Source: a virus
Length of the DNA: 36,494 bases
Strand: one strand, 5' to 3'
IMG/VR virus record: IMGVR_UViG_3300021432_000025
Coordinates: 1 to 36,494 of that record
Positions 9,189 through 14,755 of the stretch are shown piece after piece; the first letter of the stretch is position 1; each line of letters opens with the position of its first letter. The translations under genes and the position numbers were made by a program. Below the pieces are notes generated by a model, which worked only from the letters and a program-made list of their open reading frames with translations, did not search any database and was not told where the DNA came from.

Positions 9189-9383
9189 TTAGCGCCCGTC
9201 CGTGTAACGGCCGTTATACGACAACGTGCCGATGTTTTCGCCGCCGTCAGTTTTGACCGTCCAGACTGAGCCAACGTCTGACGCGCCGTACCCGTTGGAA
9301 TCGACGGCGTCGCGCATTTTGGCGGCTAGACCTTCAAACGTGTTGGCCGTCAGGGTGCCTACTTTGGGAATCTTGACTTGCAT
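9189..9383 (-). CDS. Hypothetical protein, 64 residues
   Basis: MQVKIPKVGTLTANTFEGLA, then RDAVDSNGYGASDVGSVWTV and a C-terminal strand NIGTLSYNGRYTDGR. The ATG at 9383 has GGAG 9 nt upstream; earlier in-frame starts have none. First gene of the second leftward operon, divergent from the methyltransferase across a 120-bp region with two palindromes. Function unknown. Confidence 0.7.
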   Translation of the reverse strand: MQVKIPKVGTLTANTFEGLAAKMRDAVDSNGYGASDVGSVWTVKTDGGENIGTLSYNGRYTDGR

Positions 9384-9503: not shown

Positions 9504-10586
9504 ATGCCAACACCACGGGCGTATTACAATGAATTTGACGTTAAAGCTGCGGCTTGGCTTCGCGAACTCATCAAAGCGGGCCATATCGCCCCCGGCGACG
9601 TTGACGACCGAAGCATCAAAGACGTTGCAGCGGCGGACCTTAAGGGCTACACGCAATGCCATTTCTTCGCCGGTATCGGCGGTTGGTCCTACGCACTGCG
9701 CCTCGCAGGATGGCCCGACGACCGCCCCGTGTGGACCGGCTCATGCCCCTGTCAGCCTTTCAGCATGGCCGGGCAACGCGGCGGCACAGACGACCCCCGT
9801 CATTTATGGCCTGAATTCTATAGGCTCATCGGCTTCGGCCGACCTTCAACAATCTTTGGCGAACAGGTTGCAAGTAAAGACGGCCTCGCTTGGCTCGACA
9901 TTGTTTGCGCTGATATGGAAAGAGCGGACTACGCCATTGGGGCGGCGGATATGTGCGCTGCGGGCGTCGGCGCACCGCACATTAGACAGCGGCTCTATTT
10001 CGTGGGCGACACCGCAAGCGCGCGATCACTTCCCGGCGCACACGCCAGAATACATAGCAGCCAAGAAAGCGTTGGGTCATGGGATGGCGAATCTAAACGA
10101 CCATGTACAGTTAGCCAATTGGCCTTCTCCGAAGGCCAGCAACACGACGGGCGCGGGAACGCGCGGACAGGGCGGCGACAATCTACAAACGGTTGCGACT
10201 TGGGCGACGCCCTACGTGAGCGACAGCAAGAACGTGGGGTACAGCTATGGGGGGTTGAACACGGAAGGCAGGCCCTACAGCATCAATCTGAGATTGCCGG
10301 GACAAGCAGCCATAACGAGTTGGAATACGCCTCATGCGACGGACGGCAGCAACGGCGGCCCGAGTCAGGCGAACGGGGCATTGAGTGCGGACGCCGCCAA
10401 AGCGCGTGGGACAACGTCGAGTTCATCCCCTGTACAGACGGAAAAGCGCGGCCAATTGAATCCGGCACATTCCCGCTGGCTCATGGGGTACCCCATCGCG
10501 TGGGACTATTGCGGGGCTACGGCAATGCAATCGTGCCTCAAGTCGCGGCGGAATTCATAGGGGCTTACCTCGACATAGCGGGTTAG
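9504..10586 (+). CDS. DNA (cytosine-5-)-methyltransferase
   Basis: 360 residues. Conserved C5-MTase motifs appear in order: I FAGIGG (55-60, S-adenosylmethionine binding), IV PCQPFS with catalytic C83, a variant VI GEQV (119-122, usually ENV), VIII IRQRLYFVG (160-168), and near the C-terminus IX/X-like RGYGNAIVPQVAAEF (337-351). Residues ~170-305 are the variable target-recognition part. It would methylate cytosine in phage DNA, probably against host restriction. No Shine-Dalgarno precedes the ATG. The +1 frame is open along the whole gene and is itself protein-like (separate entry). A lone MTase: no restriction gene is adjacent. Confidence 0.9.
   Translation: MPTPRAYYNEFDVKAAAWLRELIKAGHIAPGDVDDRSIKDVAAADLKGYTQCHFFAGIGGWSYALRLAGWPDDRPVWTGSCPCQPFSMAGQRGGTDDPRHLWPEFYRLIGFGRPSTIFGEQVASKDGLAWLDIVCADMERADYAIGAADMCAAGVGAPHIRQRLYFVGDTASARSLPGAHARIHSSQESVGSWDGESKRPCTVSQLAFSEGQQHDGRGNARTGRRQSTNGCDLGDALRERQQERGVQLWGVEHGRQALQHQSEIAGTSSHNELEYASCDGRQQRRPESGERGIECGRRQSAWDNVEFIPCTDGKARPIESGTFPLAHGVPHRVGLLRGYGNAIVPQVAAEFIGAYLDIAG
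9529..10560 (+). CDS. Alternative-frame product within the methyltransferase gene
   Basis: The +1 frame is open through the methyltransferase and from ATG at 9529 (MNLTLKLRLGFANSSKRAIS) would give 343 residues. It holds GSTLFALIWKERTTPLGRRI, ICALRASAHRT and four W-x-[TS]-P-x-x-x repeats beginning at 10003, 10120, 10201 and 10321, ending RGQLNPAHSRWLMGYPIAWD. I recall the WxTP and LNPxxxRWLMG style from phage proteins annotated as methylase-related. Expression could come from the ATG 25 nt after the MTase start or from a frameshift. Translation is unproven; the open frame and family resemblance are the evidence. Confidence 0.4.
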   Translation: MNLTLKLRLGFANSSKRAISPPATLTTEASKTLQRRTLRATRNAISSPVSAVGPTHCASQDGPTTAPCGPAHAPVSLSAWPGNAAAQTTPVIYGLNSIGSSASADLQQSLANRLQVKTASLGSTLFALIWKERTTPLGRRICALRASAHRTLDSGSISWATPQARDHFPAHTPEYIAAKKALGHGMANLNDHVQLANWPSPKASNTTGAGTRGQGGDNLQTVATWATPYVSDSKNVGYSYGGLNTEGRPYSINLRLPGQAAITSWNTPHATDGSNGGPSQANGALSADAAKARGTTSSSSPVQTEKRGQLNPAHSRWLMGYPIAWDYCGATAMQSCLKSRRNS

Positions 10587-13675: not shown

Positions 13676-14755
13676 ATGACTAAGGCACGTACGGCGGCGC
13701 AGTTCAAGGAACAGCACGACCCCGCAACTATCATTCTCAACCTACGCAACGAACTCAAAGACGCGCGGGCCGAGGCAATCAACGCAACCGTGATTCGCGA
13801 GATTATCGGTACCGCGAAACTCGAAACCGAAAAATTGCGCATACCGGAATGGGTCGTCAAGCCTACTGTGACCGCCGACGCGCCGGGCGTCCCGGGCCTC
13901 ATGCTGTCCGATTTGCATTGGGGCGAGAAAGTCAAACGCGAGCAAGTCAACGGCGTCAACGAGTTCGATTTGAACATCGCGCGGCGCCGGCTGCGCAACG
14001 TCGTCGAGAAAACCGTCAAGCTCTGCAAGATTCTCGACCCGGGCATGCGGTACCCGGGCATCGTGGTCAAGCTCGGCGGCGACATGGTTGGCGGCAACAT
14101 TCACGACGAACTCACGGCGACCAACGAGGCGAACATCATGCCCGTTGTGCTCGACCTATACCGTAACCTCGTGCCGGCAATCTCGCTGTTCGCCGACGTG
14201 TTCGGTAACGTGTTCCTGCCCTGCGTGAGCGGCAACCACGACCGCAGCACATACAAGACTTGGCACAAGGACCGCAACGACACGTCGTTCGGTTGGCTGT
14301 TGTATCAGTTCTTGGCCGAGCGATTCTCGAATGACAAGCGCGTCAGTTTCTACATTCCCGACAGCGCCGACGCCCTTTACCGCATTTACTCGACGCGGTA
14401 CTTGCTCACACACGGCGACCAATTCCGCTCGGGCGATTCAATCATCGGCCCAATCGGCCCGTTGATGCGCGGCAACCAAAAGAAACAACAGCGCAACGCC
14501 GCGGTCGATCAGTCATACGACATTATGGAATGCGGCCATTGGCACCAACGCATTGTGTTGTCGCACTTGATGGTCAACTCGTGCCTCAAGGGTTACGACG
14601 AATACGCGGCCGACAACAACTACCGGTTCGAGCCGCCCTCGCAGAACCTTTGCACGACGCACCCGGATATCGGCGTCAATTGGGCAATGCCCGTGTTCTG
14701 CGACCCGCCGGCCAAGCGTGACGCGACGCCGTGGGTATCGGTGCCGAAACTGTGA
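13676..14755 (+). CDS. Calcineurin-like metallophosphoesterase (Mre11/SbcD-like)
   Basis: 359 residues with all five metallophosphoesterase motifs: LSDLHWGE (D79, H81), GGDMVGG (D136), GNHDR (N187, H188), THGDQF (H246) and CGHWHQ (287-290). The 70-residue N-terminal helical segment (TKARTAAQFKEQHDPATIIL) is outside the catalytic domain and shares a motif with the preceding protein. Two-metal phosphodiesterase on DNA ends or nucleotides is expected. GAGGAA precedes the ATG, and its stop overlaps the next GTG. No SbcC-like ATPase partner is present. Confidence 0.88.
   Translation: MTKARTAAQFKEQHDPATIILNLRNELKDARAEAINATVIREIIGTAKLETEKLRIPEWVVKPTVTADAPGVPGLMLSDLHWGEKVKREQVNGVNEFDLNIARRRLRNVVEKTVKLCKILDPGMRYPGIVVKLGGDMVGGNIHDELTATNEANIMPVVLDLYRNLVPAISLFADVFGNVFLPCVSGNHDRSTYKTWHKDRNDTSFGWLLYQFLAERFSNDKRVSFYIPDSADALYRIYSTRYLLTHGDQFRSGDSIIGPIGPLMRGNQKKQQRNAAVDQSYDIMECGHWHQRIVLSHLMVNSCLKGYDEYAADNNYRFEPPSQNLCTTHPDIGVNWAMPVFCDPPAKRDATPWVSVPKL

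Follow-up and report, generated by a model that had tools for sequence, protein, structure and literature searches.

EcoHK31I is an E. coli restriction-modification enzyme whose small methyltransferase gene is reportedly nested, out of frame, within the large one, an overlap that Lee, Kam and Shaw are said to have described in 1995 (NAR 23:103). According to a published summary, M.EcoHK31I is a two-polypeptide C5 cytosine methyltransferase (C5-MTase) with the target YGGCCR, in which motifs I-VIII and X belong to the large subunit, motif IX lies on a second, smaller polypeptide, and the predicted target-recognition domain (TRD) is assigned to α rather than to β (PMC3404938). The same summary presents M.AquI as a C5-MTase naturally split into a catalytic and a recognition part, in which the small subunit has both motif IX and motif X (PMC3404938). 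In the multispecific C5-MTases of the Bacillus phages SPR, phi3T and H2, tandem target-recognition modules are placed between motifs VIII and IX (PMC8936443). Finally, an out-of-frame HNH insertion in phage methylases has been reported for ShiLan (PMC11855218).

The window, meaning the whole analyzed stretch of 36,494 nucleotides (IMG/VR record IMGVR_UViG_3300021432_000025), is a tailed-phage record with terminase, portal, head protease, major head protein and tail sheath genes; a DNA repair exonuclease-like gene (phrog_284, 13676-14755) has an unusual location between the portal and head protease genes. Immediately 5' of the portal gene lies a C5-MTase open reading frame of 360 aa (frame A, 9504-10586; all features described here are on the plus strand) that matches PF00145 (E = 1.5e-14) and phrog_363 (E = 2e-74). 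The α polypeptide translated from it bears the motifs expected of a PF00145 member, namely motif I (FAGIGGW, 9666-9686), motif IV with its PCQ (CPCQPFS, 9744-9764), a VI-like motif with EQV in place of ENV (FGEQVA, 9855-9872), motif VIII (APHIRQRLYFV, 9972-10004) and motif X (RGYGNAIVPQV, 10512-10544). The original prediction credited this frame with all C5-MTase motifs, which proved wrong because motif IX sits in the +1 frame: no LxPxxxxxLMGxP is found in frame A, so that α has motifs I-VIII and X without IX. The +1 frame (frame B) opens at a GTG at 9226 and remains open to a TAG at 10558-10560, spanning the whole MTase gene except its final 26 nt, in agreement with what had been predicted. 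Its inferred product β, which would have 343 aa (9529-10560) given a start at the ATG at 9529, consists of a conserved N-terminal block, a series of units starting with W-x-[TS]-P, and a motif of the form LNPAHSRWLMGYPxxW. The N-terminal block (GSTLFALIWKERTTPLGRRICALRASAHRT, 9892-9981) overlaps motifs VI-VIII of α. All the peptides quoted in the original prediction were found again, and the units start exactly at 10003, 10120, 10201 and 10321 as it had claimed; the VGDTA and LGDAL that it took for matching elements of the MTase frame are merely the frame-A reading of the W-x-T-P units of frame B, and not independent motifs.

In layout, this locus resembles M.EcoHK31I, with motifs I-VIII and X on α and motif IX on a polypeptide from a second frame. 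It differs in that M.EcoHK31I has one reported target and a predicted TRD in α, while the β of the window bears a modular, shuffled array at the place of the TRD, and in that genes of the window's type are found in phages and prophages rather than in a restriction-modification system. Unlike in M.AquI, motif X stays on α and the two genes overlap almost fully. The likeness to the SPR, phi3T and H2 enzymes lies in the tandem interchangeable modules at the VIII-IX place of a phage C5-MTase, yet these enzymes are single chains read in one frame, whereas the array of the window is in the +1 frame and on a separate polypeptide. M.EcoHK31I already provides a precedent for a two-polypeptide enzyme whose small chain carries motif IX; new are the modular putative TRD array in the β frame, the shuffling of its cassettes and the prevalence of the arrangement among phages and prophages.

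We examined hundreds of relatives from phages and prophages, and nearly all of them showed the same two-frame layout. When frame B alone was used as a tblastn query, 211 phage records were matched (best E = 6e-43) and, the matches listed lay in genes annotated as methyltransferase or hypothetical protein. A protein search, as had been proposed for the +1 product, retrieved phrog_1008 (6e-30) and also phrog_31772, both labelled "DNA methyltransferase"; these two families and those named "Mte8-like protein" correspond to the +1 product, and both frames were annotated by the depositors of K1ind1 and PhiXhv-28. We found no record or paper that gives the function of the +1 product or its motif IX, nor did a search reveal the source of the name "Mte8". 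In the open-access literature, neither the phage family nor a second-frame recognition array was found to be described, subscription papers and REBASE notes being outside the scope of this search. The product of frame B had no match among Pfam, NCBIfam and PDB sequences, and its AlphaFold2 model was poor (mean pLDDT 56.6), leaving the AlphaFold2/Foldseek confidence too low for use. A weak match to the terminus of frame B lies antisense to an annotated gene in Mycobacterium phage Modragons.

Long spurious ORFs are common in high-GC genes and no expression data exist, hence the +1 ORF could in principle be an untranslated shadow, kept open only by the codon bias of the MTase gene or by constraint on its nucleotides. 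We compared stop codons with those in synonymous shuffles, which preserve the protein and the codon usage. For the window alone, no +1 stop was present against 5.5 expected (0/200 shuffles as low), and a non-redundant set of 50 homologues, for which selection relied mostly on the MTase frame and demanded an uninterrupted frame A, contained 8 against 177. The +2 frame served as control and was not depleted (599 stops versus 514 expected). By region, the +1 counts through codon 300 were 0 against 22, 33, 31 and 54 expected, with none at all in the core of codons 45-300, and the motif IX zone had 3 against 29.5; the +1 stops of relatives are confined to the first ~40 codons and to the vicinity of the end. 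In the reverse test, in which the same 50 genes were shuffled synonymously for frame B, frame-A stops in the module region numbered 0 versus 116 expected. As uninterrupted A frames had been a requirement for these 50 genes, this reverse result weighs most in a set picked by frame B, and relatives were indeed collected separately via each frame. An independent set of 73 loci from prokaryotic genomes, chosen by frame B alone, had 14 +1 stops against 220 expected, and an internal stop in frame A was seen in only one of the B-picked loci (L332), one tandem duplication aside. Frequent +1 stops in homologues, which would have refuted the original prediction, were thus looked for and not encountered. 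A sequencing frameshift in one gene is ruled out as well, since every relative with a frame-A match has its frame-B match in the same +1 frame, and since the MTase lies in the same relative frame to B in 80/80 loci of prokaryotic genome assemblies. In single-frame relatives, used as negative control, +1 stops between motifs VIII and IX are not avoided (43 versus 52 expected).

Some individual loci deserve mention. The lone frame-A stop of Consotaella salsifontis (L332) falls in the module region, at match codon ~196, with β intact, making this locus a candidate for a naturally truncated α. In Pseudomonas phage PMG1 (L131, gene near 1430-2400), α is broken near its start by an apparent 4-base duplication; the β frame is intact, and the depositors annotated β only. 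A Pseudodesulfovibrio MAG (L364) apparently carries two head-to-tail tandem copies of the overlapping gene, and second copies on one contig were seen in the pairs L340/L341 and L314/L362.

Conservation of the two frames is distributed unevenly along the gene. The similarity of frame B exceeds that of shuffles by 35-61 standard deviations at α residues 121-160, where the β N-terminal block (z 36-45) lies under constraint on both frames, and at residues 301-340, with z 61 at motif IX. Similarity in the +2 frame also rises at these two places, though less than in B, an expected effect because two frames fix the bases. At the gene ends, position 3 of frame A is the fastest, the pattern of frame-A coding. 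In the module region, by contrast, differences at positions 1/2/3 of frame-B codons amount to 0.15/0.10/0.41, A position 3 being the slowest (0.10) and B position 3 the fastest (0.41), and within matched module families the B rates are 0.17/0.13/0.39. It follows that the central part of the gene evolves under frame-B coding, with frame A merely held open. Selection on both frames is thus observed at the level of the sequences, and the old, selected dual-coding arrangement suspected in the original prediction is consistent with every test made, stop avoidance and the B-picked set included. A mere shadow, which would explain neither the 8 stops in place of 177 beside an undepleted +2 frame, nor a third-position signature that tracks frame B, nor the lack of the effect in the module region of single-frame relatives, was rejected on the basis of the synonymous shuffles and of the +2 and single-frame controls, and we regard it as hardly credible.

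What β contributes is suggested by its relatives. Its segment LNPAHSRWLMGYP aligns with motif IX of single-chain relatives (hhalign, probability 95.1, E = 3e-8), which identifies RGQLNPAHSRWLMGYPIAWD (10447-10506) as motif IX, while α reads the same DNA as ARPIESGTFPLAHGVPHRVG; the alignment of the β C-terminus with motif IX of M.HhaI is collinear, with a weak score. Single-chain relatives in actinophages (L229-L250) have in one frame motifs I-VIII, in most cases LPTP units, then (L)xPxFxEWMMGWPxGW and GNGVVPQQ, and the modules of overlapped genes match the in-frame units between VIII and IX of such single-chain MTases (66% identity, E = 6e-15 for L384_2 versus L244). In the split relatives L170, L254 and L264, motifs I-VIII are on one chain and the units with IX and X on the next, and the same holds for genes 49 and 50, which are neighbors in Streptomyces phage Samy; L170/L171, L254, L264 and Samy thereby share the plan of M.AquI. 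In Samy (L147), gene 50 probably starts earlier than annotated (1874), the conserved β N-terminal block being found upstream of that position and overlapping gene 49. In two single-chain actinophage MTases (L144/L145), the +1 frame at ~1507-1936 matches the β N-terminal block over VI-VIII (E = 2e-8 and 9e-8), as if these genes had come from an overlapped ancestor or still encoded this part. The partition of motifs itself was counted by regular expression in loci that were not de-replicated: 192 loci belong to the class of the window, with motif IX restricted to B and X restricted to A, whereas the pattern shows both motifs in A for 9 and both in B for 2, and ~86 more loci were missed by it because it is strict.

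The assignment of recognition and motif IX to β rests chiefly on this natural series of single-chain, split and overlapped forms. We infer, with a probability of about 0.8, that the locus encodes a two-subunit C5-MTase from one stretch of DNA, with β as putative TRD and motif IX subunit; the +1 frame very probably encodes the part that chooses the sequences to mark. Of the two roles considered in the original prediction for a second product, a change of target choice is hence the one that the sequences favor, and β would be more than a mere regulator of the enzyme. One may nevertheless ask whether β is a real protein with another job, such as anti-restriction, chaperoning or regulation, next to an α that methylates alone and uses its own frame-A linker as TRD, since no fold could be assigned to β and the predicted TRD of M.EcoHK31I is placed in α by the published summary (PMC3404938). 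This is improbable given that motif IX is absent from A and present in B, that single-chain MTases have these same modules between VIII and IX, and that, of the two frames in that region, the one encoding the A linker is the less conserved. A mobile HNH insertion of the ShiLan type, which would share with this locus the hidden second-frame protein within a phage methylase gene, was discarded too: ShiLan is a mobile nuclease insertion of different frame, protein and mechanism, no HNH is present here, and the interval between VIII and IX is where modules of this family naturally reside.

The modules are tandem W-x-[TS]-P units of about 30-40 aa. From 219 loci we obtained 591 units, which formed 42 families with at least 3 loci each, and 38 of these 42 occupy at least two array positions; shuffling of the units is thus seen in the sequences. 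Three of the four modules of the window belong to families found at multiple positions: module 1 (WATPQARDHFPAHTPEYIAAKKALGHGMANLNDHVQLAN, 10003-10119; 21 loci, positions 1, 2, 3 and 5), module 2 (WPSPKASNTTGAGTRGQGGDNLQTVAT, 10120-10200; 12 loci, positions 1, 2 and 3) and module 4 (WNTPHATDGSNGGPSQANGALSADAAKARG, 10321-10410 with an approximate 3' border; 13 loci, positions 1, 2 and 4). For module 3 (WATPYVSDSKNVGYSYGGLNTEGRPYSINLRLPGQAAITS, 10201-10320), no further family member was found. Their position and their shuffling are the grounds on which we infer a recognition role for the units, without fold or DNA-contact data. The AlphaFold2 model of one single-chain relative has M.HhaI as its best fold match, with the module region unmodelled (pLDDT 33-48); because the modules are unresolved in both AlphaFold2 models, fold evidence for a contact between modules and DNA is lacking. 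Tentatively, and at somewhat less than even odds, β might be an exchangeable, HsdS-like specificity subunit, with +1 cassettes shuffled between phages to alter or multiply the targets, the α frame being only kept open and catalysis left untouched.

Translation of β is likewise inferred, and its start was sought upstream of the conserved core. All 50 genes have a frame-B ATG there (29 expected), and in 32 of them an ATG preceded by a Shine-Dalgarno sequence is found before B (5.6 expected, maximum 12 in 200 shuffles), an observed enrichment. Typical sites of this kind are AGGAGCATTGAAGATG and GGAGANGTNGATG, at α codons 35-41. The ATG at 9529 put forward in the original prediction does belong to the +1 frame, at a distance of 25 nt from the start of the MTase, and is plausible for the window's clade, being kept in the three closest relatives (L001, L087 and L002); it is not the start used family-wide, which lies near MTase codons 35-41. 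As the ATGs of codons 35-41 are absent from this clade, and as ATG 9529 has no evident Shine-Dalgarno in the window and no clear one in the three relatives, the start of β in the window remains uncertain. Programmed ribosomal frameshifting near motif VIII could alternatively fuse the catalytic half of α to the modules and motif IX of β, giving a fusion and no heterodimer; one frame change near VIII would indeed restore the canonical I-VIII, TRD, IX and X order in L170 and L254, and natural in-frame fusions exist. Such a shift seems unlikely, as frame B is open from codon 45 and strongly conserved from residue 120, well 5' of any useful shift point, as a shift product would not require the Shine-Dalgarno and ATG sites ahead of B, and as the fusion in the window would lack motif X, which is in frame A.

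In the favored two-subunit reading, frame A would yield α, responsible for SAM binding and catalysis through motifs I-VIII and for motif X, while the place expected for the TRD would be taken by a linker under little constraint. The +1 frame, initiated within the α gene, would yield β with its N-terminal block, the W-x-[TS]-P array acting as TRD, and motif IX. The two would assemble in trans into an active enzyme and mark the DNA of the phage, presumably as protection from restriction by the host, and swaps of modules would change the methylated sequences; this assembly, the module-based choice of targets and the biological role are inferred. Most of the phage methylases that we looked up are annotated as one-protein enzymes. 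If the two-subunit reading is true, the annotation of this family covers only the catalytic half and misses the target-choosing part concealed in the +1 frame, so that attempts to clone or model α by itself would either fail or give misleading results. The overlap, each frame of which bears an independent signature of selection, would then belong to the more widely distributed of the long same-strand overlaps that are known from double-stranded DNA phages. Its single-frame, split and overlapped natural relatives offer material for studying the origin of overlapping genes, and the shuffling of modules would provide a directly testable code for target choice.
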